Shown here: piece after piece, positions 1,972 through 31,158 of the stretch
Layout of the letters: each line of letters starts with the position of its first letter
Numbering within the stretch: position 1 is the first letter of the stretch
From: an uncultured Bacteroidales bacterium
GTDB lineage: Bacteria; Bacteroidota; Bacteroidia; Bacteroidales; Muribaculaceae
NCBI GenBank assembly: GCA_902772455.1
Contig: CACYAW010000041.1
Coordinates: 1 to 41,776, forward strand
Reading direction: 5' to 3'
DNA length: 41,776 bases
Position numbers and translations under genes: made by a program
Notes under the pieces: generated by a model
The model's database searches: none
Told to the model about the DNA's origin: nothing
The model's input: only the letters and a program-made list of their open reading frames with translations

Positions 1972-4900
1972 ATGAAGAAAATCATGTTTTTCCTGACAGC
2001 CGCCATTATGGCGATGTCCTTAACAGCCGCACCTGTAGACCAGAACACGGCTCAAATGAAAGCAAAGAATTTCTTAACCAACGAATTCTATGCAGGTAAA
2101 TTTATGTCGCCAGCAGCGCTTAATCCCGTGCTGCTCAAGGCAGAGATGGGTAATGTGAAATTTGATCAACCCGTCTATTACATTTACAACACTTCAACTA
2201 CCTTCATTGTCGTGGCCGGTGATGACCGTGCCGAAGAGATCCTGATGGTAGGCGACCGTCCCTTGAAGGACGTCAACAACCTGCCTTTGGGTATGCGTGA
2301 CCTGCTGGGCCAGTACAAGGACCAGATCATGTACCTGCAAGAGCATCCGGGCATGGGGTCCAAACTGCTGCTCAGCCCACAGAATGCACCGAAGCTGCGC
2401 GCCGGCACCTACGGCCCGCTGCTGACCTGCAACTGGGACCAGCAGGCTCCCTATTGGAACCAGTGTAAGTTCGGCAGCTATCAGTGTCTGACGGGGTGCC
2501 CCGCCACGTCGGCATCGATGGTGTTCTACTTCTGGAAATATCCAACAGATCCAACCCCCGTTGTTCCTGGTTACAAGTCAACCATCAGCACGGGAAGCTA
2601 TAGCTCGAAGAGCTACACCCACTCGGCCCTGCCCTCGACCACCTTTGACTGGGCCAACATGCTTGACGACTACACCGGCAGCTACACGACTGCCCAGGGT
2701 AACGCTGTTGCCACCCTGATGCACTATGTGGGTCAGGCCGAGCACATGGGTTATGGTACCGATGGTAGCGGTGTGAGTGTTGACAGTGTGAGCAACATCC
2801 GCAACGCTTTCACCTTCTTCGGCTACGATTCAAGCACCACCCGCTTTGTCAAGAAGACCAGCGCCTATAGTGGTGGTTCCACGCTCTACACCGATGCACA
2901 GTGGGCTGCTATGATTCAGGAAGAGATGGCCGCTGGCCGTCCCATCGTGTTCTGCGCCGTTAGCTCCAACGCCGGCGGACACGCCTTCAACGTTGACGGT
3001 TACAACAGCAGCACCAACAAGTACCACATCAACTTCGGTTGGAGTGGCGACGGCAACGCCTGGTGCTCGCTGAACTCCTTCGGCTACAGCAGCTACAACT
3101 TCAACGTATATCAGCAGATGGTAATCGGTATCCAGCCGCCCAGCGGCTCGACCGCTACTCCCACGCTGAGCGTTAGCCCCAGCTCGCTGAGCTTCAGCAC
3201 CACAGCTGGCCAGACCGTGACCAAGACCTTCACCGTGACCGGTACCAACCTGACCGGCAATGTGACGCTGACCAAGAGCGACGCTAATGGCGTTTACACC
3301 ATTTCGCCGACCACCATCAGCGCCAGTGCTGCAGCCAGTGGTGCTACCGTTACCGTGACCTACAACCCCACGGCAGCCGGCACCCAATCAGGCACCATCA
3401 CTGTTGCAAGCAGCGGTGCTACCAGCAAGACCGTTTCGCTGAGCGGCACGGCCACCGCAGCCACCCTGGAGACCTATACTCCCGTGATGAGCGCCGCCAA
3501 CAGCAGCTACATCACCACCAACAGCTTCCGCGCTAACTGGACCGACCAGACTCCTACCGCTAACGTGTCCAGCTATACCCTGCAGGTGAACGAGAAGGGT
3601 AGCACTCCCGCCACCAGCCAGCTGGCAAACATCGACCTGAGCGGTGTGACCCAGGTCACCAACTCCGACGGCTATCTGACCGACGTGGCCAGCAGCATCT
3701 CCAGCTATCTGGGCACCGGATGGACCGCATCGACCTATGTATATGCCAACACGGGTATGCTCATCACTGGCGGCAACCTGGTATCGCCCACCTATAGCCT
3801 GAGCGGCTACAGCAATGTGACCGTTAAGGTAACAGCCTACTCCTACTACTCGAGCTACTATGGCAACGCCACCTTGAGCGTGGGCACCGGCAGCCAGACC
3901 AAGACCCAGGCCTTGACCGACAACAGCACCACCTATACCTTCGTGCTGAATTGCGCTTCGAGCGACAAGGTGACCATCGGCTCGACGAGCAACTACATCA
4001 GTGTAAGCAAGATTGAAATCTATGCCGGCGACGCTACTTCAGTTAACATGTTGAAGGCCAGCGAGACCGGTGGCGAGACCAGCCGCACCATCACGGGTAT
4101 CACCAACAAGTACTACACCGTGAACAACCTGAAGGCTGGCGGCACCTTTGTATATACGGGTATCACCAACAAGTACTACACCGTGAACAACCTGAAGGCT
4201 GGCGGCACCTTTGTATATAAGGTGAAAGCCATCTACACCGACGGTACCGAGAGCGCTTGGAGTAACGAACAGGAAGTTACCCTGAACGAGGAAGTTGTTG
4301 CAACTCCCACCCTCACTGTAACTCCCGCATCGTTGAGCATGACCGCCTACACGGGCGAGACAGCTACCGCCACCTTCAAGGTAACGGGTACTGACCTGAC
4401 CGGCAACGTGACCTTGACCAAGAGCGGTTCGAGCGTCTTCAGCATCACTCCCACCACAATCACGGCAGCCAATGCCGCTAACGGTGTGAACGTGACTGTG
4501 ACCTATGCTCCTACCGCAACGGGCACCCAGACAGGTACCATCACCATTGCCAGCTCGGGCGCCGAGAGCAAGACCGTCACCCTGACTGGTACTGCCACCA
4601 CCGCTCCCATCACGACCTACACTCCCGTGATGAGCGCCGCCAACAGCAGCTATATCACCACCAACAGCTTCCGTGCTGACTGGACCGACCAGACCGCAAG
4701 CGCCAACGTGGCCAGCTACACCCTGGAGGTGAACGGCCAGGGCGGCTCAACGCCTTCGACTCCCGTCACCCTGCTGGGCACCATCGACGGCAGCAACTAC
4801 ACCGGCAGCTACAAGACCATCACGCTGAGCTCGCCTTGGGGCGGCACCAATGTGAAGGGTGGTAACAGCGCCGTTTACTTCACCAAGAGCGGCAAGATCA

Positions 4901-6582
4901 CCTTCACGATTCCTTCGGGCTACACCAACGCCACCTTCAGCGTGAAGGTTACCACTTCGAACAACTCTTATGGTACCGGCAACGTCACCGTCAAGTCCAC
5001 CAACACCTCGGCTGCGGGCCATACCTTCGCCAAGAACGAGACCTACACCTGGACTGTTACGGGTAGCACAGGCGACGTGATCACCTTGACCACAACCGAT
5101 ACCAGCTACTCGCCCGACATGACGATGATTCAGGTTTATGCAGGCAACACCAACCTCAACGCCACCGAGACCGGCGACGCTACTGCCCGCACAATCACCG
5201 GCATCACCAACAAGTACTACACGGTTACCGGCCTGACGACAGCCGCCACCTATACTTATAAGGTGAAGGCCATCTACACCGACGGCAGCGAGAGCGCTTG
5301 GAGTAACGAGCAGAGCGTCACCCTCAAGGATGAAGAGCCCGCCGCTACCCCGACCCTGACGGTAACTCCCGCCAGCCTGAGCATGACGGCCAACGTGGGT
5401 GCCACCAAGACGGCCACCTTCAAGGTAACCGGTGCCGACCTGACCGGCAATGTAACCCTGAGCCTGAGCGGTGCCAGCGTCTTCAGCATCTCGCCGACGA
5501 CCATCACCGCTGCTAATGCCGCCAATGGCGTGAACGTGACCGTAACCTACGCTCCCACCGCCTACGGCACACAGACTGCTACCGTTACCGTTGCCAGCTC
5601 GGGCGCTGCCAGCAAGACTGTTGCCCTGACCGGTAATGCCACCATCAACAAGGCTAACCCCGTACTGAATGCAGCCACCAACATCAGCAGCACCAGCTTC
5701 ACAGCCAACTGGACGCACGATGTCGACGCATCAGTTGTTTCGAGCTACACCTTGTATGGTACGCTCACTGCACAGCCTGGCGGTGATGAGCCCAGCGACG
5801 CTACCCTGCTGGGTACCATCGACGGCAGCAACTACACCGGCAGCTATGCAACCGTCACGCTGACCTCGCCGTGGAGCGGTACCAACGTGAAGGGTGGCAA
5901 CGGTGCCGTTTACACCAAGAACAGCACTTCGGGCTGGTGGTGGAACAGCACGACGACCTATGGTTACATCTACTTCACCATCCCGTCGGGCTACAGCAAT
6001 GCTACCTTCACTGTCATGATCACTACCGCCAACACCAGCTATGGTAGCGGCAACATCACCGTGAAGTCGGCCAAGACCTCGGCCGTTGGCCACAGCTTCT
6101 CCAATGGTGAGACTTATGCATGGACGGTAACCGGCAGCGCTGGCGATGTCATCTCGATCTACTCGACCGACAGCAGCTACTCGCCCGACATGGCAATGAT
6201 TCAGGTATATGCCGGAACCGCTTCGTTCAATGCTACCGCAACCGGTGACAACACCGACTTTGTGATCACCGACATCGACGCCGGTTCGACAGGCATCACC
6301 CTGAACAACCTCGTAGAGGGTGGCACTTACTCCTACTACCTCGTTGCCAACTATGTTGACGGCACCACCGCTACCAGCAACACTCAGGAGGTAACGCTTG
6401 TCAGCCTGAATGCAGGAAGCCAGACCGGTCTCTACAACCTTGTCACCGACGGCGACGAGATTGAATCGGTAACCTATGTGAACCTGAAGGGTATGCAGAG
6501 CAATGATCCTTGGGACGGTATCAACATTGTGGTAACCCGCTACCGCAACGGTGTAACCAAGACCACCAAGGTACGCTATTAA
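1972..6582 (+). CDS. Giant secreted C10 (streptopain-like) cysteine protease with Ig/FnIII-type repeats and a T9SS-like tail
   Basis: 1536 residues. Order: signal peptide (about 1-20); Spi-like prodomain (about 21-140, with the VVAGDDRAEEIL block); papain-fold C10 catalytic domain (about 150-390) with nucleophile Cys176 in CLTGCPATS and His337 in GGHAFNVDGY, followed by NFGWSG. Three rounds then follow of an Ig-like domain (starting near 397, 776 and 1124) plus an FnIII-like domain apparently interrupted by a beta-rich insert (500-774, 880-1120, 1227-1477). The last 60 residues (NLKGMQ, then GINIVVTRYRNG) resemble a T9SS sorting tail. C10 peptidases are secreted endopeptidases made as zymogens; substrates are unknown here. 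Codon use is strongly biased to GCC, ACC, AAC and CTG, which suggests high expression. It has a 63-bp exact tandem duplication (4093-4218). The catalytic domain is closest to the 28732 paralogue. The catalytic call is firm; the tail call is by resemblance. Confidence 0.93.
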   Translation: MKKIMFFLTAAIMAMSLTAAPVDQNTAQMKAKNFLTNEFYAGKFMSPAALNPVLLKAEMGNVKFDQPVYYIYNTSTTFIVVAGDDRAEEILMVGDRPLKDVNNLPLGMRDLLGQYKDQIMYLQEHPGMGSKLLLSPQNAPKLRAGTYGPLLTCNWDQQAPYWNQCKFGSYQCLTGCPATSASMVFYFWKYPTDPTPVVPGYKSTISTGSYSSKSYTHSALPSTTFDWANMLDDYTGSYTTAQGNAVATLMHYVGQAEHMGYGTDGSGVSVDSVSNIRNAFTFFGYDSSTTRFVKKTSAYSGGSTLYTDAQWAAMIQEEMAAGRPIVFCAVSSNAGGHAFNVDGYNSSTNKYHINFGWSGDGNAWCSLNSFGYSSYNFNVYQQMVIGIQPPSGSTATPTLSVSPSSLSFSTTAGQTVTKTFTVTGTNLTGNVTLTKSDANGVYTISPTTISASAAASGATVTVTYNPTAAGTQSGTITVASSGATSKTVSLSGTATAATLETYTPVMSAANSSYITTNSFRANWTDQTPTANVSSYTLQVNEKGSTPATSQLANIDLSGVTQVTNSDGYLTDVASSISSYLGTGWTASTYVYANTGMLITGGNLVSPTYSLSGYSNVTVKVTAYSYYSSYYGNATLSVGTGSQTKTQALTDNSTTYTFVLNCASSDKVTIGSTSNYISVSKIEIYAGDATSVNMLKASETGGETSRTITGITNKYYTVNNLKAGGTFVYTGITNKYYTVNNLKAGGTFVYKVKAIYTDGTESAWSNEQEVTLNEEVVATPTLTVTPASLSMTAYTGETATATFKVTGTDLTGNVTLTKSGSSVFSITPTTITAANAANGVNVTVTYAPTATGTQTGTITIASSGAESKTVTLTGTATTAPITTYTPVMSAANSSYITTNSFRADWTDQTASANVASYTLEVNGQGGSTPSTPVTLLGTIDGSNYTGSYKTITLSSPWGGTNVKGGNSAVYFTKSGKITFTIPSGYTNATFSVKVTTSNNSYGTGNVTVKSTNTSAAGHTFAKNETYTWTVTGSTGDVITLTTTDTSYSPDMTMIQVYAGNTNLNATETGDATARTITGITNKYYTVTGLTTAATYTYKVKAIYTDGSESAWSNEQSVTLKDEEPAATPTLTVTPASLSMTANVGATKTATFKVTGADLTGNVTLSLSGASVFSISPTTITAANAANGVNVTVTYAPTAYGTQTATVTVASSGAASKTVALTGNATINKANPVLNAATNISSTSFTANWTHDVDASVVSSYTLYGTLTAQPGGDEPSDATLLGTIDGSNYTGSYATVTLTSPWSGTNVKGGNGAVYTKNSTSGWWWNSTTTYGYIYFTIPSGYSNATFTVMITTANTSYGSGNITVKSAKTSAVGHSFSNGETYAWTVTGSAGDVISIYSTDSSYSPDMAMIQVYAGTASFNATATGDNTDFVITDIDAGSTGITLNNLVEGGTYSYYLVANYVDGTTATSNTQEVTLVSLNAGSQTGLYNLVTDGDEIESVTYVNLKGMQSNDPWDGINIVVTRYRNGVTKTTKVRY
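4093..4218 (+). repeat. Exact 63-bp in-frame tandem duplication inside the large C10 protease
   Basis: Positions 4093-4155 and 4156-4218 are identical and encode the same 21 residues twice (TGITNKYYTVNNLKAGGTFV followed by Y). The segment is the second half of an FnIII-like domain; the paralogues and the other domains of this protein have it once. Identity at the DNA level points to a recent event or an assembly artefact. Confidence 0.95.
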
Positions 6583-6630
6583 GCCGAATCCATTATCGGA
6601 TAGGATTTACCGATAATCATCACTAAACGT

Positions 6631-6666
6631 GAGGGCGCTGCCAGTTGGGTAGCGCCCTCATTTTTG
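6631..6666 (+). terminator. Rho-independent terminator after the large C10 protease
   Basis: GAGGGCGCT (6631-6639) pairs with AGCGCCCTC (6651-6659) and is followed by A and a T run. A second hairpin just upstream (ATTATCGG 6592-6599 with CCGATAAT 6610-6617) lies right after the stop codon. Confidence 0.85.
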
Positions 6667-6716
6667 CCATTTTAATGAAATTTCTTACCATGATGCCCAC
6701 AAAAACCAAGAAAACT

Positions 6717-6747
6717 TTTGGAGTTTTAAAAGTTTTCTGTACTTTTG
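6717..6747 (+). promoter_or_regulatory. Promoter of the TetR/efflux operon
   Basis: TTTG (6717-6720), 19 bases, TACTTTTG (6740-6747): a full match to the Bacteroidetes consensus. It lies downstream of an in-frame ATG at 6645, so translation must start later, at 6786. That leaves a leader of about 30 bases where a TetR operator would be expected. Confidence 0.75.
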
Positions 6748-6785
6748 CGCCCACAAACAGATATATATCATTACTACGCATCAAC

Positions 6786-9952: not shown

Positions 9953-11980
9953 ATGAGTTTATATTCCAGTTCAGTAAAACGACCGGTAACCACGATCCTC
10001 ATATTCGTGGCACTGATTGTGCTGGGTCTGTTCTCGCTCCGCAGCCTGCCCATCGACCTGTTCCCCGACGTGGAGACCAACACCATCATGGTGATGACCA
10101 GTTATGCGGGAACCAGTGCGTCGGATATCGAGCAGAACGTGACCCGCCCGCTTGAGAATGCCCTCAACTCGGTAGAGCACCTCAAACACATCACGTCCAA
10201 CAGCCGTGAGAACATCTCGATTGTGACCCTGGAGTTTGAATACGGTTATGATATCGAAGCGTTGACCAACGACGTGCGCGACAAACTCGACATGGTGTCG
10301 AGCATGTTGCCCGACGATGCCAACACGCCCATCATCTTCAAGTTCAGCAGCGACATGATCCCCATCGTGCTGCTGTCGGTGCAGGCAGGTCAAAGTATGC
10401 CCGGCTTGTACAAGATTCTCGACGAGAACGTCGCCAACCCGTTGGCGCGTGTCGATGGTGTGGGTTCGGTATCCATCGCCGGTGCCCCCAAGCGCGAGAT
10501 CCACATCTATCTGGATCCCCTGCGCATGGAGGCCTACAACCTGAGTGTCGAAACCGTGGCTGCCCTGGTCGGTGCCGAGAACCGCAATATCCCTGGCGGT
10601 ACCTTCGACATCGGTAACGAGACCTACCCCCTGCGTGTGCAGGGTGAGTTCAGCGACCCGCAGCAGATGGGTGCCATGGTTGTGGGCATGTCGCCCACCG
10701 GTGGTGTTGTCCACCTGAGTGACGTGGCCCGCATCGACGATTCGCTCGAGGAGCGTGCCCAAGAGAGCTACAACAACGGCCAGAAGGGTGCGATGATCAT
10801 CGTACAGAAGCAGTCGGGTGCCAACTCGGTGCAGATTTCGGAGAAAATCGCCAAGGAGTTGCCCAAAATCCAGAAGAACCTGCCCAGCGACATCAAGTTG
10901 GGTTATATCGTCGATACTAGCGACAACATCCGCAGCACCATTTCCTCGCTGGTCGAGACCGTGCTGTTCGCACTGTTGTTCGTCGGCATTGTGGTGTTTG
11001 TGTTCCTGGGCCGCTGGCGTGCTACCGTCATTGTGCTGGTTACCATCCCCATTTCGCTGATTGCCTCGTTCATCTACCTGTATGCCACCGGCAACTCGTT
11101 GAATATCGTATCCCTGTCGGCCTTGTCCATCGCCATCGGTATGGTGGTCGATGACGCCATTGTGGTGCTCGAGAACGTGACGACCCACATCGAACGCGGT
11201 TCGGCGCCTATGCAAGCTGCTGTGAACGGTACTAACGAGGTGGCCCTCTCGGTAATGGCATCGACGCTGACACTGATTGCCGTGTTCTTCCCGTTGACCA
11301 TGGTTAAGGGTATGACCGGTGTGCTGTTCAAACAGCTGGGTTGGATGGTAACCATCATGATGGTGCTGTCGCTCATCTGCGCCTTGATGCTTACCCCCAT
11401 GCTGTGTAGCCGTCTGTTGAGGCTCAATGTGGGTGACACCAAGATCTTCCAAAAGGTGTATGGCCCCATCCTGAAGGTGCTCAACAAAATCGACGACTTC
11501 TATGCTAAGGTGCTGGACAAGTGCGTTGCTCACCGCTGGATTACCGCAGCAACCGCACTAGGTGTGTTTGTGTTCTCCATCTTCCTGATGAAGTTTGTCG
11601 GCACCGAGTTCTTCCCCACCAATGACAACGGCCGCCTGGGTGTCTCGCTGGAGTTGCCCATCGGTTCGCGCGTTGACCTGGCCAAGGACGTCAGCCAGCG
11701 CATCTACAAGGAATGGACCGAGAAATATCCCGAGATCCAGTCCTTCAACTACACCGTGGGCCAGGCAAGCAGTGACAACACCTACGCCTCGATGCAGAGC
11801 AACGGTTCACACATCATCTCGATGAACATCATGCTCAACAAGTCCAACGAGCGCAAGCGCGGCATCACCGAGATTGCCGGCATGATGCGTGAAGACCTCA
11901 AGAACTACCCCGAGAGCGATGGTAAACGTGGGTGGTGGCCGTGGTGGCGGCATGAGTGGCCAGAACACGCTGAACTATGA
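9953..11980 (+). CDS. RND (HAE1/AcrB-type) multidrug efflux pump, 5' part; frame broken near 11915-11930
   Basis: This frame encodes the first two thirds of an AcrB-like pump: TM1 (about residues 11-30), periplasmic porter domain, TM cluster from about 325, the TM4 proton-relay motif GMVVDDAIVVLENV (about 396-409), and TM5-6. Up to about residue 658 it reads as normal RND protein (EDLKNYPESD). It then runs off frame into a Trp-rich artefactual end. The correct reading resumes in another frame (11889-13058). Together they span 3106 bases, about 1035 codons, which is the usual RND length with a net shift of +1 (or -2). The fourth gene of the efflux operon. Either a real inactivating mutation or a sequence error in a GGT-rich stretch. 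Confidence 0.9.
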   Translation: MSLYSSSVKRPVTTILIFVALIVLGLFSLRSLPIDLFPDVETNTIMVMTSYAGTSASDIEQNVTRPLENALNSVEHLKHITSNSRENISIVTLEFEYGYDIEALTNDVRDKLDMVSSMLPDDANTPIIFKFSSDMIPIVLLSVQAGQSMPGLYKILDENVANPLARVDGVGSVSIAGAPKREIHIYLDPLRMEAYNLSVETVAALVGAENRNIPGGTFDIGNETYPLRVQGEFSDPQQMGAMVVGMSPTGGVVHLSDVARIDDSLEERAQESYNNGQKGAMIIVQKQSGANSVQISEKIAKELPKIQKNLPSDIKLGYIVDTSDNIRSTISSLVETVLFALLFVGIVVFVFLGRWRATVIVLVTIPISLIASFIYLYATGNSLNIVSLSALSIAIGMVVDDAIVVLENVTTHIERGSAPMQAAVNGTNEVALSVMASTLTLIAVFFPLTMVKGMTGVLFKQLGWMVTIMMVLSLICALMLTPMLCSRLLRLNVGDTKIFQKVYGPILKVLNKIDDFYAKVLDKCVAHRWITAATALGVFVFSIFLMKFVGTEFFPTNDNGRLGVSLELPIGSRVDLAKDVSQRIYKEWTEKYPEIQSFNYTVGQASSDNTYASMQSNGSHIISMNIMLNKSNERKRGITEIAGMMREDLKNYPESDGKRGWWPWWRHEWPEHAEL

Positions 11981-20710: not shown

Positions 20711-20853
20711 ATTCTTATTTTTTGAGTTTTGCGCCATGGGGCGCGGTTAATAACAATCGCTCCTGACTTAAAAACCTAATCCTGATTCAAGGGCATTTTT
20801 TTTGCTCGATCATTCTTTTTTCCCACGTCAAGGCATATGGTCTTGTCTTTTTG

Positions 20854-21188: not shown

Positions 21189-23201
21189 ATGAGAAAGTTA
21201 CTAACTCTAGCCGCCATTTTGTTCGCGGCATCGTCGCTCATGGCTGGCAATGTTGATTTATCAACTGCCCAGACCAAAGCCGCCAATTTTCTTAAATCCA
21301 AGGCACCCCAAGGCCGCCTGATGACCTCGCCCCCCACTGTAAAGTGGACCCACGAGGTAAAGAACTCAAGCAAAGCCTCTCTGGCCGCTTACTACATCGT
21401 GAACACCGACAAGGGTTACGCCATCGTTGCCGGTGATGACCGTGCCCGTGAAATCCTTGCCTACGGCAACGGTACCCTTACCGACCTGAACGACCTGCCC
21501 GATGCCATGCAGCTCTACCTTAACAAGTTCCAGAAACAGATTGAGTACCTCCAGGCTCATCCCGGCCTGAAGGTTCAAAAGGCTGTCAATCGTGGTGGCG
21601 TGTCAGTTCAGCCTCTGCTCAAGACCGCTTGGTCTCAGGGCAAGCCTTATAATATGTACTGCCCTAAAGTGGGTCGCGACTACTGCAAGGTGGGCTGCTC
21701 GGCTCTCTCGCTGGCCCAGGTAATGAGGTATTGGGAGTATCCCGCCGGTTCTCCCGCTCTGCCCGGCTACACCGGTGAGGAGTTCGGTATCACGGTTCCT
21801 GCTCTGCCCGAATACACGTTTGACTGGGACAACATGTGGGATACCTACGAAGGTTATACTTCGGAGTCGGCTATTGACCGCATACCTGAAGTGAACAAGA
21901 ACGCCATTACCTATTTCCTGCGCTATGTGGGTCAGGCCGAGACGATGGACTATGGCACAAATATGAGTGGTGCCGAATACCCCGAGATTATGCAGGCCAT
22001 CCGCACCTTCGGTTATGACGAGGGTGTCCACATCGAGATGAAGTGGGATTATGATGACGGTACCGTTAATTATACCGAGGAGGAATGGGGCGAACTGATC
22101 CAGTCTGAACTCATTGCAGGCCGTCCCCTGGTATATTGCGCATTCGACACCTCGGGTGAAGGCGAGAACATGACTCTCTTGGGCCACGCTTTCAATGTTG
22201 ACGGCTACGATGCCGAGAATGATATGTATCACGTGAACTTCGGTATGGCTTCAACACTGAACGCTTACTATGCCCTCGATGCTTTCCAGATTGACTATGT
22301 GACGGTTTATGACTTCTTCCCCTTGCTGTTCGCAGGTCTGCAGCCCCCCGGTCTCTCGACCGATCCCCGCATCCTGGTTGACAAGCAGAACGTGAATATG
22401 GCATGCTATGCCGGTGAAACCGTTACCGACACCATCACCGTTAAGGGTCAATACCTGACCGAAGGCATTGCTGTAGCCCTCAACGATGAGAACGGCGCCT
22501 TCTCGATCGATGTGAATTCCATCGCTCTTGACCAGGTAGGTAACGCCAAGATTATTGTAACCTACGCACCCCAGGCTGTTGGCACCCACAACGCCACGAT
22601 TACCCTGACGAGTGAAGGCGCCGACACTAAGGTCGTTACCCTGAAGGGTACCGCCACCAATGCGCCTCTTGTTGTCTATGATCCCGTGATGCTCCCCGCC
22701 AACGAGGACTACATCAGGCTGACCTCGTTCCGTGCCGACTGGACCGACCAGACTGCTCCCGAAAACGTTGCCAGCTACACCCTTGAGGTGAAGCAAAAGC
22801 CCACCAGCGGCCTGATTGCCGAAGCCGACTGGAGCGAGGTTCCCTCATCGGGCAGTGCTGCCAACTACATGCCCGAGGGTTGGACCTACAATGGCAGTGT
22901 TTATCTTGAAGGTGGCTACATCTCGATTTCAAGCACCTACAGCATCTTCTCTCCTGAGCTTGATCTCACGGGCTTTGACAAGGTAACCGTTGTCGTCAGG
23001 GCTAAGAACGAATATTCCTGGACCAACTCTGCCATCTCGGTTAAAACCAGCGTTGATAGCAAATATGCTGAGTTTACAACTGACTTTGCCGATTACACCT
23101 TTGTATTGAATTGTGGTGGCAGTGAGAAGATTGAGATTTATTCCGAGCTCTACTATCCCAATATTCAAAGCGTTAAGGGCCGAGGGCACCTTCCTGTATA
23201 A
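21189..23201 (+). CDS. C10 cysteine protease, degenerating: frame broken before its C-terminal FnIII half and dockerin
   Basis: 670 residues in this frame. Signal peptide (1-19), Spi-like prodomain with AIVAGDDRAREILAYG, C10 catalytic domain with Cys170 (CKVGCSALS) and His333 (LGHAFNVDGY), an Ig-like domain (about 388-490), the first half of an FnIII-like domain (SFRADWTDQTAPENVASYTL, about 505-524) and its beta-rich insert (about 541-660). The paralogues then read KIYAGD and continue for about 40 residues before the second FnIII half. Here NIQSVK is followed directly by the later part in another frame, so a deletion of roughly 120 bases plus a frame change lies near 23175-23185. The conserved GWSG/GWGG after the catalytic His is NFGMAS here, losing a Trp that every other paralogue keeps. 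Probably inactive or decaying, though the catalytic pair remains. Confidence 0.85.
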   Translation: MRKLLTLAAILFAASSLMAGNVDLSTAQTKAANFLKSKAPQGRLMTSPPTVKWTHEVKNSSKASLAAYYIVNTDKGYAIVAGDDRAREILAYGNGTLTDLNDLPDAMQLYLNKFQKQIEYLQAHPGLKVQKAVNRGGVSVQPLLKTAWSQGKPYNMYCPKVGRDYCKVGCSALSLAQVMRYWEYPAGSPALPGYTGEEFGITVPALPEYTFDWDNMWDTYEGYTSESAIDRIPEVNKNAITYFLRYVGQAETMDYGTNMSGAEYPEIMQAIRTFGYDEGVHIEMKWDYDDGTVNYTEEEWGELIQSELIAGRPLVYCAFDTSGEGENMTLLGHAFNVDGYDAENDMYHVNFGMASTLNAYYALDAFQIDYVTVYDFFPLLFAGLQPPGLSTDPRILVDKQNVNMACYAGETVTDTITVKGQYLTEGIAVALNDENGAFSIDVNSIALDQVGNAKIIVTYAPQAVGTHNATITLTSEGADTKVVTLKGTATNAPLVVYDPVMLPANEDYIRLTSFRADWTDQTAPENVASYTLEVKQKPTSGLIAEADWSEVPSSGSAANYMPEGWTYNGSVYLEGGYISISSTYSIFSPELDLTGFDKVTVVVRAKNEYSWTNSAISVKTSVDSKYAEFTTDFADYTFVLNCGGSEKIEIYSELYYPNIQSVKGRGHLPV

Positions 23202-23472
23202 GGTTAAGGCCATCTACACAGACAACACCGAGAGCGCATGGAGCAACACCCAGATGGTAACCCTGTTTGATAACGGTCCTGCTCCTCACGAGTATGCTGC
23301 AGGTGACGTGAACCACGACAAGGAGGTCAACATTGTTGACGTGACCGCATTGGTTGACTACCTGCTGGGTAACGGCGAAATCTGCCTCACTTGCGCTGAT
23401 GTGGACGGCGACGAAGATGTCAACATTGCCGACGTGACCGCACTCATCGATAGACTGCTGGGCGGCAATTGA
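23113..23472 (+). pseudogene. Detached C-terminal remnant of the 21189 protease (FnIII end plus dockerin)
   Basis: The meaningful sequence starts near 23179 with AEGTFLYKVKAIYTDNTESA, the second half of the FnIII-like domain. A two-repeat dockerin-like module follows (GDVNHDKEVNIVDVTALVDY and DVDGDEDVNIADVTALIDRL). It is in a different frame from 21189-23201 and has no signal peptide or plausible start of its own; the ATG at 23113 lies in the overlap. It is almost identical in design to the intact tail of the next gene. A strong terminator follows at 23506. Confidence 0.85.
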
Positions 23473-23637: not shown

Positions 23638-26001
23638 ATGAGAAAGATTCTATTACTTGCCGCATTGTTGATCACTGCGGTACACGGCTGGGCTACAGCC
23701 ATCAACCAGAAGACAGCCCTTTCACAAGCAGAGCAGTTCCTGCAGCGCCAAACATTGACCGGACACAGTCAAGGCGGCGGGACCTTGCGTCTGTCTCACA
23801 TCGAGAACAGTTCCTTGAAAGGCGACACACCGGTATATTACATCTTTGAGAACGGGAACGGCTTCATTATTGTCGCGGGAGACGACCGGGCACAGTCGAT
23901 TCTGGCCTACGGCGATGGATCTCTTGGCGACATGAAGAACCTGCCAGCCAACATGCGCTACTGGTTATCCTGCTACAAACAGCAACTGGAATACCTGCTT
24001 GAAAACCCCGACATCCACCCCACACTGCGCATGCCACAACGTGCCGGCACAACAGTAACCCCGCTTATCAGTGCTAACTGGAGCCAGGCTGCGCCTTACT
24101 GGAACGAGTGCCCGGTCTTTGGCACCGACACTTGCTACACGGGATGCCCGGCCACCTCGTTATCGATGGTATTCCACTACTGGAAATACCCCAAACAGCA
24201 GACGCCCGCCGTACCGTCCCACACGATTCCGACCTATGGGGTGGTGCTGCCCGAACTGGTACCCACCGTATTTGACTGGGACAATATGCTCGATGATTAC
24301 ACGCAAGGCTACACTGATGTCCAAGCCAGCGCTGTGGCCCACCTGATGCGTTACATCGGCCAAGTCGAGCACATGGATTACACCATCAGCGGCAGCGGTG
24401 CTTACGGCAACGACGTTCTGAGGGCAGTCAAGTTCTTTGAATATGACCAGAATGCCCAACTCCTTTTCAAGACCGATGAACTAGGTTATGCCAACTATAA
24501 CGACAGCCAGTGGGGCGCACTCATCCAAACCGAACTGAATGCCGGGCGTCCCATCGTGTACATGGCCTATGACAACCTGACGGGCAGCGGCCACGCCTTC
24601 AATGTTGACGGCTATGACGCCGATGACAACACTTACCACATCAATTGGGGCTGGAACGGCAGGGGAAACGGCTATTTCGCCTTGAATGCCTTCTCTTACC
24701 AGGGATACACCTTTGGCACAGGGCAACAGATGGTTGTCGGCATCCAGCCTCCCGAGGGTTTTCAGGAGCCCCGCTTGCAGGCCTATTCCACAACCGTCAA
24801 TATGCAGGCCTACATCGGAAAGCCGTCCAGCACCACCATTAACTTCAAGGGCACTAACCTGACCGATGATGTGACCCTGACGCTCAACGATCCAGACGGC
24901 GTGTTCGCCCTCGATGCAAGTACCATTTCCCAAGAAGTGGCCGAGGCTGGAGTTGAACTCACCGTGACCTATACTCCCCAAGCCGTAGGTGCCAGCACCG
25001 CGACATTGACCTGCACCAGCCAGGGAGCCAACATCTTGACCATCACCCTCAATGGCGATGCCCCGCTTGAAGTATATGCTCCCGTCCTGCAACCTGCCCA
25101 AGAGCGATACATCACCTTGACCTCGTTCCGTGCCGACTGGACTGACGAGACACCCGGGCAGAACGTGGACAGCTACACCCTTGAGGTTGAAGCAAAGCCC
25201 GACTACCTGCTGCTTGAGGAAGCCGACTTCAGCGACCTGCCCAAGATGTCTCCCACCAACCAAGCCTCTCATGCCACCGACTACCTTCCCGCAGGCTGGT
25301 CGTTCACGGGTAGCGAGTTCAATCTGGAAGGCGGTTGCGTCATGCCCCGCCGAGGCAGCGTCATCACCACCGATGCCCTCTCGTTGAGTGGCTATGACAA
25401 AGTGACCGTTGTCGTTACAGCACGCAGTTATGGTTCGTGGGGCGACCCGTCAGAGCTGACCATCTCGACCAGTCAAGCCAGCCAGACGCTTGAATTGCCT
25501 TTCTCCTACTCTGCCCAGACCGTTGTGCTCGATTGTGCCGAGGGAGGTCAAATCCAGTTCAAGGCCGGCTATTACCCCATGATCCAGAAGATCGAGATCT
25601 ATGCTGGCGATGCCAGTGCTCTCAACAACCTCAAAGCCAATGAGAGCGGCAACGAGAACTACCGTCTTATCACCGGCATCACAGGCAAGTCCTATCTGGT
25701 TACAGACCTCGCGGCAGGGGGCACGTTCTTCTACCGCGTCAAGGCCTTATATTCCGACGGCACCCAGAGCGACTGGAGCGAAAAAGAAATCGTCACCCTG
25801 GTTGAAGGCCAAAGCCACCCCTTCCAAGCTGGGGATGTGAACCATGACGAAGACGTCAACATTGCTGACGTGACCGCGTTGATCGACTACCTGCTGGGTA
25901 ACGGCGACATCTGCCTCACTTGCGCTAATGTGGATGGCGACGATGGCGTCAACATTGCCGACGTCACTACACTGATTGACCAGTTGCTTGCAGGCAAATG
26001 A
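23638..26001 (+). CDS. Secreted C10 cysteine protease with split FnIII-like region and C-terminal dockerin
   Basis: 787 residues. Signal peptide (about 1-20), Spi-like prodomain (IIVAGDDRAQSILAYGDG), C10 catalytic domain with Cys170 (CYTGCPATS) and His319 (SGHAFNVDGY) followed by HINWGWNG. Ig-like domain at about 379-477; first FnIII half at about 478-520 (TSFRADWTDETPG); beta-rich insert at about 521-662 that begins LLLEEADFSDLP; second FnIII half at about 663-725 (ITGKSYLVTDLAAGGTFFYR). Dockerin-like pair at about 730-787, with two DVNxD/DVDGD calcium loops and a CLTC linker between them. All catalytic-site features are intact. A probable operon with 26041, which follows after 39 bases. No Shine-Dalgarno is visible. 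Substrate and dockerin partner are unknown. Confidence 0.93.
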   Translation: MRKILLLAALLITAVHGWATAINQKTALSQAEQFLQRQTLTGHSQGGGTLRLSHIENSSLKGDTPVYYIFENGNGFIIVAGDDRAQSILAYGDGSLGDMKNLPANMRYWLSCYKQQLEYLLENPDIHPTLRMPQRAGTTVTPLISANWSQAAPYWNECPVFGTDTCYTGCPATSLSMVFHYWKYPKQQTPAVPSHTIPTYGVVLPELVPTVFDWDNMLDDYTQGYTDVQASAVAHLMRYIGQVEHMDYTISGSGAYGNDVLRAVKFFEYDQNAQLLFKTDELGYANYNDSQWGALIQTELNAGRPIVYMAYDNLTGSGHAFNVDGYDADDNTYHINWGWNGRGNGYFALNAFSYQGYTFGTGQQMVVGIQPPEGFQEPRLQAYSTTVNMQAYIGKPSSTTINFKGTNLTDDVTLTLNDPDGVFALDASTISQEVAEAGVELTVTYTPQAVGASTATLTCTSQGANILTITLNGDAPLEVYAPVLQPAQERYITLTSFRADWTDETPGQNVDSYTLEVEAKPDYLLLEEADFSDLPKMSPTNQASHATDYLPAGWSFTGSEFNLEGGCVMPRRGSVITTDALSLSGYDKVTVVVTARSYGSWGDPSELTISTSQASQTLELPFSYSAQTVVLDCAEGGQIQFKAGYYPMIQKIEIYAGDASALNNLKANESGNENYRLITGITGKSYLVTDLAAGGTFFYRVKALYSDGTQSDWSEKEIVTLVEGQSHPFQAGDVNHDEDVNIADVTALIDYLLGNGDICLTCANVDGDDGVNIADVTTLIDQLLAGK

Positions 26002-26040: not shown

Positions 26041-28437
26041 ATGAAAAGAATCTCTTTTTTGTTAGCCCTAGTGTCCACTGCCCTGCTGGGCATGGCTGCT
26101 CCTGTCGATCTGGCCACTGCCAGGACAACCGCCCTGCAGTTTGTCCAGACCCACAGCAAGAGCCACACCTTGAGCAGGCCGTCCTCCGCCGACTTGCGGC
26201 TGTTGCATGCCGAAGCCAATTCGAGCCTCATGGGGCAGACGGCCTATTACATTTTCAACACAGGGGAAGCTGGCTTTGTCATTGTCTCGGGTGATGACCG
26301 TGCCCAGGCCATCCTTGCCCATGGCGACCATGCGCTGGACATGGGGAACCTGCCCCAAAACATGAAATTCTGGCTGAGCACCTACAAACGGCAATTGGAA
26401 TTCCTGCAGGCTCATCCCGAACTGATCGTGGAGGCGCCCGTGCGCGGCAATACCGACATGCCTACGATTCCGCCGCTGCTCCGCGCCAATTGGGACCAGC
26501 TGGAACCTTACAACCTGCATTGTCCGACCCTGGACGGTGAGTTGTGTGTGACGGGCTGCCCCGCGACCTCGTTGTCGATGGTGCTTTATCACTGGAAATA
26601 CCCAACTCAACCCATTCCTGCCGTGGATGGCTACATCAACATGACCGGTGGTTTCCAGGTACCTGCCCTGCCCTCGACCACCCTGGACTGGGACAACATG
26701 CTGGACAACTATGAAGGCGTGGATTACACCCCCGAACAGGCCGAAGCGGTGGCCTGGCTAATGCGCTATGTGGGACAGGTGGAACGCATGAACTACAGTC
26801 CCGAGGGCAGCGGTGCCCAGGCTGACGACATCCTGCGCGCCGTCAGGTTCTTCGGGTATGACGAGACCGCCCATGTGGCCACCAAATCGCTGGCCGACTA
26901 CTTCGGCAACGAGACCGAACTGATCAGTGATGAGGACTGGGCTGTCATGCTGCAGAACGAACTGATGGCGGGCCGTCCTGTGGTTTATTGCGCCTTTGAC
27001 TACTCATCCACTTATGGCTGGAGCGGCCATGCCTTTAATGTTGACGGCTATACCCCCGCCACCAACACCTATCATGTGAATTGGGGCTGGAGTGGCATCG
27101 GTAACGGTGACTTTGCCCTGAATGCCTTCAACTATGGCCGATACTCCTTCAGCATCGAGCAGCAGATGGTTATGGGCATCCAGCCACCTGCCACAACTCC
27201 CACACTGCGGGTTTCGCCACTGCAATTGGACATGGAGGCCTATGTCGACCAGAGCACAACAGCCACATTTAACGTCAAGGGACTGCTGCTTGTTGATGAC
27301 GTGACGCTGACGCTCGACGACGGGAATGGAGCCTTTTCACTGGATGCCAGCGACATTGGCATGAACGATGCCCTTGACGGGGTAACTGTCACCGTGACCT
27401 ATTCGCCTCTGGCCAGCGGCACACACACGGCAACCGTGACCCTGAGCAGCCCCGAAGCCGATGACGTGACCGTCACGCTCAATGGAACCGCCCAGCTGGA
27501 AACCTTCGTCCCCACGGTCCTTCCCGCCGACAGCGCTCACATCGGGTTGACACAATTCCGTGCCGACTGGACCGACCTGACGGCTTCGAAATATGTCTCG
27601 AGCTACACCCTTGAGGTAAATACCAAACCCGGCACCATGCTCCTTGACCAGGCTGACTGGAGCAGCCTGCAAGAGGGCAGCACCAACTTTGCCGACAATC
27701 CCGACGCATTGCTTCCCGAAGGCTGGACCTTTAGCGGCAACGGATTGTGGTGTGAAGCGGGAGCCGTCTCCATCAATAACAAAAGCTCCATCATCTCCCC
27801 CGCACATGACCTGGCGGGATATGAGAAAATGACCGTTGTCGTTGCCGCCAAATCGTCCACAGCGATGAGCAGCTCCAAATTCACGGTTTCCACCAGTCTC
27901 GACAGCAAGGAAATTGCCGTCACCGAGAGTTCATCGTTTGTGCAGTGTGTGGCCGTGCTCAATTGTGACGAATTGGACCAGGTGACCATTGCCGGCAAGA
28001 CCAGTTTCCCTCAATTCCAGAGCATTAAGGTATATGCCGGAGAATTAGACGAGCCGCAACTGAGAGCCGTTTTGGAAAACGGCGATGAGAACTACAGGCT
28101 GATTACCGGCATCACCGACAAGTACTATACCGTTACTGACCTGGCAGCAGGAGGTATGTTCTATTACCGGGTAAAGGCCTTGTATATCGACGGCAGCAGC
28201 AGCCCATGGAGCAAGAGCAAAAGCATCATCCTGCAGGATAACGGCGGCGTGTGCCACACGGCTGGAGACATGGATCACGACGGGAATGTCAACATTGCTG
28301 ACGTGACCGCCCTCATCGATTATCTGCTGAATGACAATGGCGAAGTATGCCCAGTTTGTGCCGACGTCAACGGCGACAATGTTATCAACATCGGTGACGT
28401 TACCGACCTGATCGACCTGTTGCTGTCGGGCAACTGA
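26041..28437 (+). CDS. Secreted C10 cysteine protease with split FnIII-like region and C-terminal dockerin
   Basis: 798 residues, second gene of the pair starting at 23638; an AAGGA stands just before the ATG. Signal peptide (1-19, LLGMAAPVD), prodomain (VIVSGDDRAQAILAHGDH), C10 catalytic domain with Cys173 (CVTGCPATS) and His330 (SGHAFNVDGY) followed by HVNWGWSG. Ig-like domain at about 383-485; FnIII first half at about 487-530; beta-rich insert at about 531-672 (MLLDQADWSSLQ onward); FnIII second half at about 673-735. Dockerin pair at about 741-798 (GDMDHDGNVNIADVTALIDY and DVNGDNVINIGDVTDLIDLL) with a CPVC linker. The 23638 and 26041 products have the same design but differ throughout, so the duplication is not recent. 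A terminator follows at 28467. Confidence 0.93.
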   Translation: MKRISFLLALVSTALLGMAAPVDLATARTTALQFVQTHSKSHTLSRPSSADLRLLHAEANSSLMGQTAYYIFNTGEAGFVIVSGDDRAQAILAHGDHALDMGNLPQNMKFWLSTYKRQLEFLQAHPELIVEAPVRGNTDMPTIPPLLRANWDQLEPYNLHCPTLDGELCVTGCPATSLSMVLYHWKYPTQPIPAVDGYINMTGGFQVPALPSTTLDWDNMLDNYEGVDYTPEQAEAVAWLMRYVGQVERMNYSPEGSGAQADDILRAVRFFGYDETAHVATKSLADYFGNETELISDEDWAVMLQNELMAGRPVVYCAFDYSSTYGWSGHAFNVDGYTPATNTYHVNWGWSGIGNGDFALNAFNYGRYSFSIEQQMVMGIQPPATTPTLRVSPLQLDMEAYVDQSTTATFNVKGLLLVDDVTLTLDDGNGAFSLDASDIGMNDALDGVTVTVTYSPLASGTHTATVTLSSPEADDVTVTLNGTAQLETFVPTVLPADSAHIGLTQFRADWTDLTASKYVSSYTLEVNTKPGTMLLDQADWSSLQEGSTNFADNPDALLPEGWTFSGNGLWCEAGAVSINNKSSIISPAHDLAGYEKMTVVVAAKSSTAMSSSKFTVSTSLDSKEIAVTESSSFVQCVAVLNCDELDQVTIAGKTSFPQFQSIKVYAGELDEPQLRAVLENGDENYRLITGITDKYYTVTDLAAGGMFYYRVKALYIDGSSSPWSKSKSIILQDNGGVCHTAGDMDHDGNVNIADVTALIDYLLNDNGEVCPVCADVNGDNVINIGDVTDLIDLLLSGN

Positions 28438-28466
28438 CCCTGTTATCACTCACACTAACCATCATG

Positions 28467-28508
28467 TAGAGCCAGGAGCGAATCACAGAACCGCACCTGG
28501 CTCTATTT
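28467..28508 (+). terminator. Terminator after the 26041 protease
   Basis: TAGAGCCAGG (28467-28476) pairs with CCTGGCTCTA (28496-28505), followed by TTT. The loop is 19 bases. Confidence 0.7.
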
Positions 28509-28581
28509 CATGTAACAAAAACTGCATTTTTATTATTTCAGCCTTCTTCGTTGTTTTTTAACGCAAATAAATCATAAAAAA

Positions 28582-28614
28582 TTTGTCGTTATTATCATTT
28601 TTGGTGTAAATTTG
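28582..28614 (+). promoter_or_regulatory. Promoter of the 28732 protease
   Basis: TTTG (28582-28585), 21 bases, TAAATTTG (28607-28614): consensus match. The leader is about 110 bases, long like that inferred for the 1972 gene. Confidence 0.75.
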
Positions 28615-28731
28615 CAACTCTATTACTGAATGCCATCGTTGAGCGATGCAAAAAGTAAAGGTCAATTCACATTAGCTACTGAAGCATTTTTAACTTAACT
28701 AAATATTCATCAATTAATTAACCTGGTTTTT

Positions 28732-31158
28732 ATGAGAAGAATCTTATTGTGTGCCGCAGTGTTGTGTGCGGCGATCGGGCTGTCGGCAGCTCCTGTTGAC
28801 ATGAGAACAGCCCAAAGCAAAGCTCAAGCTTTTGTACAGCAAAAATTGTATGGTGGCAGACTGTGTGCGCCCATCTCGGGAGAGATGAAGCTCGTTCATG
28901 CCGAAATGAACTCCAAGATGCTGGACCGTGCCGTCTATTACATCTTCAATTCCCAGAATGGCTATGTCATCGTGTCAGGTGATGACCGCGCCGAGGAAAT
29001 CCTGGGTTATGGTGACCATCCCCTGGACATCAACACCATTCCCTGCAACATGAAGGCCTGGCTGGCCACCTACAAGGTACAGCTCGAGTACCTGCAGGCC
29101 CATGAGGGATTGCAGGTCGAGGCTCCGTCAATGAAGGCCCCCATGCGCCAAATCTCCAGCGTTGAACCGCTGCTGACTGCGCTGTGGGATCAGGAGGCTC
29201 CTTACTGGAACATGTGCAAAATCAATGGCAACCAGTGCTTGACGGGATGCCCCGCCACCTCGGCAGCAATGGTGTTCCATTACTGGAAATATCCCGACTT
29301 TGAAACTCCTGAGGTTCCTGCCTATCGTTGTGCATTGAGCACCTCGTACTGGGGCGGTTCCACCATGGTGAATGTGCCTGCACTTCCTCCTGTAACCTTC
29401 GACTGGGAGAATATGCTTGATCGCTACACCAGTGGCTATAACACTGCCCAGGCTAATGCAGTTGCCACCCTGATGCGCTACATCGGCCAGGCCGAGCACA
29501 TGGAATATGGTACCAGCGCTGCTGGTGGCAGTGGTGTTCACGTCGACAGTGTGAGCCTGATTGCCGATGCCTTCAAGTTCTTTGGCTATGACGAGGAGAC
29601 CGTTCGCGTGGTCAAGAAGACCAGTGCCTACAGCGGTGGCACCACTCTGTACACTGATGCCGAGTGGGCTGACATCATTCAAGAAGAGCTCAGCGAGGGA
29701 CGCCCCATCGTGTTCTGTGCTGTTGCCGGCGGTTTCTTTGGTGGTGGTCATGCCTTCAACGTTGACGGTTATGACAGCAGCTCCAACAAGTACCACATCA
29801 ACTTTGGCTGGAGTGGTGACGAGAACAACTACTATGCTCTGAACGCCTTCAATGGCGGCGGCTCAGTCTTCAACCAGTACCAGCAGATGGTCATCGGCAT
29901 CCAGCCGCCTCTGACCACGCCGCGCCTCAAGACCGACAAGAGCGAGATTTCTCTGTCATGCTACAAGAACGAGACCGCTACCGATCAGTTCACCTTGAAG
30001 GGCCGCAATCTGGAAGATAAAGCCACCCTGACCCTCATTGACGAGAACGGCGTGTTCAGCATCAACGAGACCTCTGTTGCTCCCGCCGAGGACAACACAA
30101 TCAATCAGAGAGTCATCGTAACCTATGCTCCCAAGGCCGAAGGCGAATATACCGCCACTATCGTGGTCAGCACACCTGGTGTCGAGGACTTTGAGATCAC
30201 CCTGAAGGGCACCTCAGTTTATGAGCTGTACCGCCCTGTCATGCTGTCCGCTAACGAGGAGGCCATCACCGCTACCTCGTTCCTTGCCGAGTGGACCGAT
30301 GAGACTCCCGCCGAGAACGTTGCCAGCTACACGCTGCAGGTTGATGCCAAGCCCGATGTGGTTCTGCTCACCCAAGGTGACTGGAGCGATGTTCCCCAGG
30401 ATGATACCAACCATGCTTCGGACGCCAACAACTATATGCCCGAAGGCTGGACCTTCACCGGCACTAAATTCTATCTGGACGGCGGTTTCATTTCACCGAA
30501 CCGCAACTCGGTCATCACCGTCAACACCGACTATGCCGGCTATCGCAAAGTGAGCGTTCTCATCAATGCCAAGGCCTATACCAAGGGATCCAACACTACC
30601 CTGACAGTATCCTCAGACATTGATTCCAAGACTATTACATTGGCTAAAGAAGTAGCTACCTATCTCGTCGTTCTTGATATGGGTGATAATCCCGTCGTAA
30701 AATTCACGGCAGGTACCTATCCCGAGATCCAGAGCATCAAGATCTATGGTGGCGAAATCACCGATCCCGAGCCCTTCACCCTGAGGGGTGCCAACGAGAC
30801 CGGCGATGCCATGAATCGCTTGATCGAAGGCATCACGCCCGACAAGTTCTACACCGTGACCGGTCTGCTGCCCGCCACTTCCTATCTGTATCGCGTGAAA
30901 GCCATCTACGTGAACGGCACCGAGAGCATGTGGAGCAACTACAAGGAAGTGATGCTCAAGGAAGGCCTGGATGTCCTCGTTGGTGATGCCGATCGCAACG
31001 GCGTTGTGAACATCGAAGACGTGACCGCTATCGTGGATTATATCCTCACCGGCACTGGCGACATCGACTTGACCGCCTCTGACGTGAACGGTAACGGACT
31101 TGTCAACATTGAGGACGTGACCGACCTGGTTGACTACCTGCTCAGAGGTGAGTGGTAA
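28732..31158 (+). CDS. Secreted C10 cysteine protease with split FnIII-like region and C-terminal dockerin
   Basis: 808 residues. Signal peptide (1-19), prodomain with VIVSGDDRAEEILGYGDH, C10 catalytic domain with Cys173 (CLTGCPATS) and His340 (GGGHAFNVDGY) then HINFGWSG. The catalytic part is the closest relative in this window of the 1972 giant protease; both have KKTSAYSGG, then TLYTDA, and RPIVFCAV. Ig-like domain at about 393-498; FnIII first half at about 499-542; beta-rich insert at about 543-682; FnIII second half at about 683-745. Dockerin pair at about 750-808 (GDADRNGVVNIEDVTAIVDY and DVNGNGLVNIEDVTDLVDYL); unlike the other three, its linker has no CxxC. Own promoter and terminator, so a separate transcription unit. 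All active-site features present. Confidence 0.93.
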   Translation: MRRILLCAAVLCAAIGLSAAPVDMRTAQSKAQAFVQQKLYGGRLCAPISGEMKLVHAEMNSKMLDRAVYYIFNSQNGYVIVSGDDRAEEILGYGDHPLDINTIPCNMKAWLATYKVQLEYLQAHEGLQVEAPSMKAPMRQISSVEPLLTALWDQEAPYWNMCKINGNQCLTGCPATSAAMVFHYWKYPDFETPEVPAYRCALSTSYWGGSTMVNVPALPPVTFDWENMLDRYTSGYNTAQANAVATLMRYIGQAEHMEYGTSAAGGSGVHVDSVSLIADAFKFFGYDEETVRVVKKTSAYSGGTTLYTDAEWADIIQEELSEGRPIVFCAVAGGFFGGGHAFNVDGYDSSSNKYHINFGWSGDENNYYALNAFNGGGSVFNQYQQMVIGIQPPLTTPRLKTDKSEISLSCYKNETATDQFTLKGRNLEDKATLTLIDENGVFSINETSVAPAEDNTINQRVIVTYAPKAEGEYTATIVVSTPGVEDFEITLKGTSVYELYRPVMLSANEEAITATSFLAEWTDETPAENVASYTLQVDAKPDVVLLTQGDWSDVPQDDTNHASDANNYMPEGWTFTGTKFYLDGGFISPNRNSVITVNTDYAGYRKVSVLINAKAYTKGSNTTLTVSSDIDSKTITLAKEVATYLVVLDMGDNPVVKFTAGTYPEIQSIKIYGGEITDPEPFTLRGANETGDAMNRLIEGITPDKFYTVTGLLPATSYLYRVKAIYVNGTESMWSNYKEVMLKEGLDVLVGDADRNGVVNIEDVTAIVDYILTGTGDIDLTASDVNGNGLVNIEDVTDLVDYLLRGEW

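Follow-up and report, generated by a model that had tools for sequence, protein, structure and literature searches.

C10 proteases with dockerin or T9SS-like tails point to a putative protease-rich, cellulosome-like assembly in a Bacteroidales genus

Why would a bacterium give one family of proteases two kinds of C-terminal tail? The question is raised by a 41,776-nucleotide stretch of DNA from an uncultured Bacteroidales bacterium (Muribaculaceae; contig CACYAW010000041.1 of assembly GCA_902772455.1), referred to below as the window. It holds six genes for C10 (streptopain-type) cysteine proteases, of which some have dockerin pairs at their ends and others have tails resembling those of the type IX secretion system (T9SS). 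The contig belongs to a 3.15-Mb draft genome, 87% complete, of a gut bacterium probably of rumen origin (the host). An initial annotation of the window had proposed that the family is equipped for two surface fates, T9SS-dependent attachment or release and docking onto an unknown partner. The answer that we find rather likely, judging from sequence, is a protease-rich, cellulosome-like surface assembly built on T9SS-exported scaffolds in a Bacteroidales genus whose named relatives come largely from ruminant guts.

The six open reading frames (ORFs) were present as originally placed. Together with their tails they are as follows.

1972 to 6582, plus strand: protease 1, 1536 aa; hydrophobic N-terminus, I69 prodomain, C10 domain (2434-3063), repeated Ig-like domains, unassigned C-terminal tail
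6355 to 6579, plus strand: tail of protease 1, T9SS-like by resemblance alone (class A6)
17276 to 20737, minus strand: protease 2, 1153 aa; hydrophobic N-terminus, I69 prodomain, C10 domain (19667-20248), choice-of-anchor D repeats, T9SS-like tail
17279 to 17503, minus strand: tail of protease 2, T9SS type A-like (TIGR04183 E 3.5e-4, 20.5 bits against a cut-off of 23)
21189 to 23201, plus strand: protease 3, broken (PF01640 E 1.1e-38); the frame stops ahead of the dockerin
23113 to 23472, plus strand: dockerin ORF belonging to protease 3, in another frame (dockerin 23299-23460, 40.5 bits)
23638 to 26001, plus strand: protease 4, 787 aa; C10 domain (24079-24678), dockerin pair (25828-25989)
26041 to 28437, plus strand: protease 5, 798 aa; C10 domain (26491-27108), dockerin pair (28261-28422)
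28732 to 31158, plus strand: protease 6, 808 aa; C10 domain (29185-29835), dockerin pair (30982-31143)

All six genes are predicted to encode C10 zymogens. Peptidase_C10 (PF01640) and the Spi/I69 prodomain (PF13734) scored above their Pfam cut-offs in every one of the six proteins, so the assigned family and prodomain stand and none of the catalytic domains falls outside C10. PF01640 E-values ranged from 1.1e-38 to 1.1e-53 (7.4e-42 for protease 1, 1.1e-53 for protease 2, and 2.1e-49, 1.1e-46 and 7.5e-44 for proteases 4, 5 and 6); protease 1 also matched PF13734 at 1.1e-12 and protease 2 matched NF012200 at 1.8e-34. Signal peptides were called by eye and by a hydrophobicity rule, without a predictor. 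The Ig-like domains said to follow the C10 domain were likewise recovered by profile (choice-of-anchor D, ASH and CFAP65-type), weakly in some of the six. The motifs GC-x-[AC]-T, GHAFN and NxGW, which we take to be the active-site Cys, active-site His and NxGW motifs of C10, are retained in five proteins; protease 3 has GCSAL and NFGM. The fold was modelled for protease 5 alone: an AlphaFold2 model from a 33-row alignment had a mean pLDDT (predicted local distance difference test) of 80.8, and its best match in the PDB was the SpeB zymogen (1dki, E 3.0e-18), with prointerpain A (3bb7) at 7.6e-17.

Dockerin_1 (PF00404) exceeded its Pfam cut-off of 22.9 bits in proteases 4, 5 and 6 (23.8, 27.7 and 26.8 bits) and in the separate ORF at 23113-23472. 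Four consecutive genes had been described as ending in dockerin-like pairs; three do, the ORF at 21189-23201 ending before its dockerin, which is left in the other-frame ORF. A profile of 10 dockerin tails hit 23 sequences of the PDB at E ≤ 0.01, with 4fl4 as the top match (1.6e-9). Most of the 23 are cellulosomal enzymes, scaffoldin adaptors or named dockerins, and two are named serine protease. By these matches, the tail of the dockerin-tailed window proteases is a predicted type I dockerin, a pair of calcium-loop/helix repeats. As in protease 3, the frame is lost at the tail or ahead of it in further C10 genes, at loci L041, L042, L100 and L116, through either mutation or misassembly of similar repeats.

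Proteases 1 and 2 did not match the dockerin profile. The two tail classes noticed at first are real, and the dockerin tails of proteases 4-6 match their profile; the T9SS label is firm for neither of the other two, since protease 2 stays below the TIGR04183 cut-off and protease 1 is unmatched, its tail giving no NCBIfam match at E ≤ 10 (a limit at which HMMER filters discard most matches above 0.1) and no Pfam match at E ≤ 0.1. Class A6, to which the tail of protease 1 belongs, occurs in 23 ORFs and lies at the C-terminus in 22, but 12 of these supplied the profile's own seeds. For the last 118 residues of protease 2, AlphaFold2 run without an alignment reached a pLDDT of 32, and the model was not used. 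A further tail lies just downstream of the protease array.

31457 to 31768, plus strand: 103-aa ORF with a T9SS type A tail (TIGR04183 4.6e-7, 29.7 bits, above the cut-off of 23)

This ORF consists of a hydrophobic N-terminus and little besides the tail, and may be a remnant or a tail cassette.

We then asked how the tails are distributed over the family. They do not follow the catalytic tree, in agreement with the idea of one protease family bearing two kinds of tail. Among 31 C10 catalytic domains (two partial C10 rows were left out), the T9SS-tailed proteases 1 and 2 do not group as sisters. Protease 1 belongs to a clade of five with support 100/99, and the remaining four have dockerin tails. 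Tail labels showed no clustering on the tree, on which some dockerin rows are labelled 'other' as a result of the strict pattern used. A scan of named genomes for relatives gave 525, of which 72 loci were kept. Their record titles name uncultured Bacteroidales labelled Prevotellaceae, Muribaculaceae, Porphyromonadaceae or Prevotella, several mention ruminant guts (water buffalo, goat, sheep, roe deer), and some carry RUG names, which presumably stand for rumen. The C10 proteins of the collected loci end in a dockerin in 166 cases, in a T9SS-like tail in 6 and in neither in 7 (179 complete C-termini; 27 open), a set that leans to dockerin tails because it was fetched with dockerin-tailed queries. 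Among C10 proteases, then, a dockerin tail is usual and a T9SS-like one exceptional.

Near-identical proteases can bear either tail. C10 proteins L113 and L115, which have a T9SS-like tail, are 99.3% and 99.2% identical to the dockerin-tailed L104 over residues 1-734 and then diverge. At the DNA level, L115 and L104 match over 4181 bp at 99.45%, and the match stops at the tail junction. A third assembly with the T9SS-like tail, L109, is 92.8% identical to L104, and the dockerin version of this protease occurs also in L093, L094 and L108. The tails are exchangeable cassettes, and the swaps are precise and recent. An assembly chimera was considered as their source and is unlikely because the T9SS-like version is present in three separate assemblies (L109, L113, L115) and the dockerin version in L104, L093, L094 and L108. 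The T9SS-like tail of the swap group (L115) had no match to an NCBIfam T9SS profile, and the available flanks of L115 and L104 gave no further DNA match outside the shared stretch. That stretch of 4.2 kb (positions 2003-6183) comes from two separately published metagenome-assembled genomes, as would follow from recent transfer or recombination. The host also encodes two giant proteins of 2136 and 2471 aa (L049, 4905-11315, plus strand; L051, 3034-10449, minus strand). They look like paralogues and share a cohesin-like module at the N-terminus, but their C-termini differ, with a dockerin pair in one and a T9SS-like tail in the other. From these giants, tail exchange may not be limited to proteases.

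How far does dockerin tagging extend in the host? The full-genome search that the initial annotation had suggested did find more copies, with 33 C10 matches; two of them carry an identical stretch of letters at contig ends and represent one cut gene, leaving about 32 C10 genes. This count is the highest in a panel of 61 genomes, 37 of the genus (range 2-33) and 24 of other families (0-9). By manual reading, the 33 ORFs comprise 23 with a dockerin pair, 2 with a degenerate pair (L037), 2 with a T9SS-like tail, both in the window, 4 broken or odd ones and 2 cut by contig ends; a separate count gives 24 C10 ORFs with a dockerin. The genome as a whole has at least 152 dockerin matches at E ≤ 1 (best 150 of 249 candidates scored), some of which share one ORF. 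T9SS-like tails number 41 at E ≤ 0.01 with our own profile A4, some of them A4's own seeds, so that dockerins outnumber them roughly four to one. PF18962 gave 10 matches at E ≤ 1, one above the Pfam cut-off. The T9SS translocon gene SprA, the one T9SS component searched for, is present (SprA_N, E 5.6e-185).

In 0.5 Mb of the host genome, chosen where dockerins, C10 or cohesins had already turned up, we counted 96 dockerin-bearing ORFs, 24 of which are C10. PF00404 matched in 57 of the 61 non-C10 dockerin ORFs scanned. The cargo of these 61 (25 of 52 families listed) includes leucine-rich repeats (LRR; 13 for the commonest LRR model), M6 peptidases (7), FGE-sulfatase (5), S8 peptidases (4), alpha-amylase (3) and CotH (3), and none of the 25 listed families was named as a cellulase. 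Dockerin tagging is not specific to proteases. At another host locus (L035, 4025-10940), C10 genes alternate with genes whose dockerin is N-terminal and whose C-terminal part is FGE-sulfatase-like (SUMF1-like).

The partner of the dockerins, left unknown at first, now has a candidate in cohesin-like modules of the same genome and genus, although binding is predicted from sequence. In the host, the cohesin profile PF00963 scored above its cut-off at two places, one of them confirmed in a whole-protein scan, and just below it at a third. A profile of 30 cohesin-like modules (A2; rows from 11 of the 61 genomes compared) found ten modules in the host, at most three per protein, and a profile made from cohesin hits found 76 modules in 40 ORFs of the collected loci. 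One host ORF (C33; 619 aa, 609 from the first ATG) has the order cohesin-dockerin-cohesin followed by a tail like that of protease 2, and the adjoining gene encodes cohesin-dockerin; the pair recurs in five further genomes of the genus, G002, G018, G024, G031 and G035. In an enlarged set of 42 cohesin ORFs, 21 have a T9SS-like tail, 14 a dockerin and 5 neither, and 2 are open. G039, a genome of another family, encodes 8-cohesin and 5-cohesin proteins with T9SS tails above both Pfam and NCBI cut-offs, the latter protein matching PF00963 at 9e-16, and it also has a C10-dockerin protein. A third set joined the tails of 19 cohesin-like ORFs that have a stop to that of the 8-cohesin G039 protein. 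Of these 20 tails, 15 matched TIGR04183 at E ≤ 0.1 and 8 scored above the NCBI cut-off; the 8 come from seven genomes, which represent six families.

Dockerins and cohesin-like modules also occur together. All 37 genomes of the genus have both: at least 16-88 dockerins each, with scoring limited to 87 candidates, and 1-15 A2 modules each. Outside the genus, G039 has at least 37 dockerins and the other 23 genomes 0-1; A2 modules were confined to G039 (24) and G057 (3). Three genomes of other genera in the same family have 0, 0 and 1 dockerin. PF00963 itself was matched in 27 of the 61 genomes at E ≤ 0.001. Order-wide, in 246 genomes besides the host, 67 have a dockerin and 22 a cohesin-like module, with 18 shared. 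Genomes G130, G131, G232 and others have many dockerin-like matches and no A2-type cohesin; of the matches listed, most begin at profile position 8-11 and may therefore represent another calcium-binding pair.

The dockerin consensus varies by genome: VNIADVTxLID in the host, TSADIT/VTxxYN in G011 and VNVSDVSALIN in G015. In 33 of 42 rows, compared with an expectation of 3.2, the nearest dockerin neighbour belonged to the row's own genome (175 rows aligned, 153 kept after dropping duplicates and rows with at least 8 gaps), a signal inflated because the rows were taken from top-scoring matches and those of G015 and part of G024 from gene clusters. Such branding is what one would expect from a genome-specific partner. 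This nearest-neighbour test took the place of a pattern search for the recognition residues of dockerins, which had almost no matches.

Putting together the protein families, the distribution and swaps of tails, the cohesin-like modules, the T9SS translocon gene and the dockerin/cohesin co-occurrence, all observed directly, we infer the following system. C10 proteases would be exported over the inner membrane as zymogens with a Spi prodomain and, on the outside, would be active. The dockerin pair would dock in a calcium-dependent manner onto cohesin-like modules of scaffold and adaptor proteins, and the T9SS-type tails of some scaffolds would hold the assembly at the cell surface. Dockerin-tagged proteins might cross the outer membrane together with a T9SS-exported scaffold or in some other way. 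A minority of proteases, including two in the window, have a T9SS-like tail instead and would need no scaffold to reach the surface. Of the two surface fates proposed earlier, the two tail classes on one family are borne out, while the destination may be a single place, the cell surface, reached by two routes.

Several results weigh against this proposal. The cohesin-like modules resemble solved cohesins weakly (best 5n5p, E 0.057), and PF00963 was not found in whole-protein scans of the two host giants (2136 and 2471 aa, E ≤ 0.1) or in the 8-cohesin G039 protein and a 6-module G011 protein (E ≤ 0.01). The modules are also scarce relative to dockerins, ten versus about 150 in the host. As to co-occurrence, PF00963 is present in genomes without a dockerin match (e.g. 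G040 and G052), and the test on the 24 genomes outside the genus is weak (cohesin in 1 of 1 dockerin-rich genomes versus 1 of 23 others, p = 0.083). The order-wide test (cohesin-like modules in 18 of 67 genomes with dockerins versus 4 of 179 without, p = 3e-8) is uncorrected for kinship, and several of the shared genomes have the dockerin within the cohesin ORF or next to it. The A2 cohesin was not found in 7 of 12 outside-genus genomes having at least 10 dockerin matches. On the side of T9SS, the tail of the C33 scaffold had no T9SS profile match, 16 of the 21 T9SS-tailed cohesin ORFs are seeds of our own tail profiles, and TIGR04183 was matched at E ≤ 0.1 in just 9 of the 20 tails of A4. When the 1972-type and 17276-type tails were compared, profile against profile, with clearer T9SS tails, the probabilities were low (20.7% and 23.2%). 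Finally, the proposal does not account for the passage of dockerin-tagged proteins through the outer membrane.

A broader version of the scaffold model is possible, and we put it forward tentatively: the Bacteroidales cohesin-dockerin pair may be a general second display route in which T9SS exports only cohesin scaffolds, dockerin proteins, in the host often proteases, ride along or are caught outside, and the dockerin serves as a swappable alternative to the T9SS tail in genome-specific brands.

Could the dockerin pair instead be a sorting or anchoring signal in its own right, replacing the T9SS tail and acting independently of cohesins? We regard this as unlikely. It would account for the position of the pair, which is C-terminal in 81 of the 96 host ORFs and ends within 13 residues of the C-terminus, for the replacement of the T9SS-like tail at the same junction in the swapped proteases, and for the excess of dockerins (about 150) over both T9SS-like tails (41) and cohesin-like modules (10) in the host. 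However, in 6 of the 96 ORFs the dockerin is N-terminal, directly behind a hydrophobic leader, which makes a purely C-terminal signal less likely, whereas a binding module may sit there. Moreover, 18 cohesin-bearing ORFs have an internal dockerin and a T9SS-like tail at the ORF end, and the stronger cohesin-like matches (E ≤ 1e-6; 18 of 246 genomes) are all in genomes with at least one dockerin match.

It is more improbable still that the dockerin-tagged proteases are periplasmic or freely released, the pair being a calcium-stabilised cap or a leftover module. Such proteases do lack a T9SS-like tail, the two degenerate host tails at L037 would suit a module falling out of use, and we know of no outer-membrane route for dockerin-tagged proteases; yet the dockerin sequence is conserved and genome-branded across unrelated proteins, and dockerin presence tracks cohesin-like modules. 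That the T9SS-tailed proteases act on the cell's own surface and the dockerin-tailed ones on something else, e.g. another organism or a substrate, would fit one family with two tail classes but is the least probable alternative, given candidate partners in the same genome whose relatives carry T9SS tails and near-identical proteases that bear either tail.

A scaffold-borne protease assembly would have precedents. For Ca. Stygibacter (Cloacimonadota), a cellulosome-like complex has been proposed with a tandem-cohesin scaffoldin (one of 3,755 aa) that has a C-terminal attachment domain and with dockerin-bearing GH18, GH57, S8 and C25 cargo (PMC8542988). As in the host, enzymes with signal peptides, peptidases included, carry C-terminal dockerins, and a non-cellulosic use was proposed (PMC8542988). 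The host differs in its phylum, in having C10 as its chief observed protease cargo, in its dockerin matches, which number about 150, in its small scaffolds (cohesin-dockerin-cohesin-tail) and cohesin-dockerin adaptors, and in the swapping of tails between near-identical proteases. The planctosome of freshwater Planctomycetes, known to us through the paper citing it (PMC8542988), is reported as a cellulosome-like structure for polypeptide degradation; it is polypeptide-directed, as the proposed host system would be, and belongs to a different phylum. Precedents for the host system thus exist in Cloacimonadota and, as cited there, in Planctomycetes.

In clostridial and Ruminococcus cellulosomes, peptidases are accessory cargo, such as an S8 protease with a double dockerin and a papain-like, NlpC/P60-type module with an X-dockerin dyad (PMC12484212, PMC3573020). 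They share with the host the type I dockerin sequence and the cohesin-dockerin logic; in contrast, the host is a T9SS-bearing member of the Bacteroidales whose cargo is rich in proteases and LRR proteins and whose anchoring would be by T9SS tails. The available text of the cellulosome review PMC12484212 has 0 occurrences of Bacteroidota or Bacteroidetes. C10 homologues have been listed among T9SS-sorted proteins of the gut Bacteroidales S24-7 (PMC4936053), which resemble the host in their C10 proteins with T9SS signals and differ from it in that the main text, as available, has 0 occurrences of dockerin or cohesin. Dockerin domains have been reported from rumen Bacteroidetes bins (PMC6071333, PMC7480376). 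Peptidase domains were the commonest catalytic companion of dockerins in the whole consortium, and the role of dockerins in Bacteroidetes polysaccharide utilization loci was termed not yet defined (PMC7480376); the available portions of these reports do not mention the C10 family, a T9SS-tailed scaffold or a tail swap (PMC6071333, PMC7480376). In the open-licence literature we found no paper that treats a C10 protease or streptopain together with a dockerin and, among the matches listed and in the portions available, no T9SS-tailed cohesin scaffold in Bacteroidales.

If true, the proposed assembly would assign both a partner and a function to the rumen Bacteroidetes dockerins, and breaking down protein rather than cellulose would be a chief task of a cellulosome-like system in this Gram-negative gut lineage. 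It would also pose the question by what path proteins tagged with a dockerin pass the outer membrane. Proteases that are nearly identical and differ just in their tail represent a natural experiment on the roles of the T9SS tail and the dockerin.

Elsewhere in the window, a gene resembling an RND-type efflux pump, on the plus strand at 9953-13058, is divided between the ORFs 9953-11980 and 11889-13058, which overlap and are read in different frames. The name comes from reading the translation, without a profile, and the frame split is either a real break or an assembly error.

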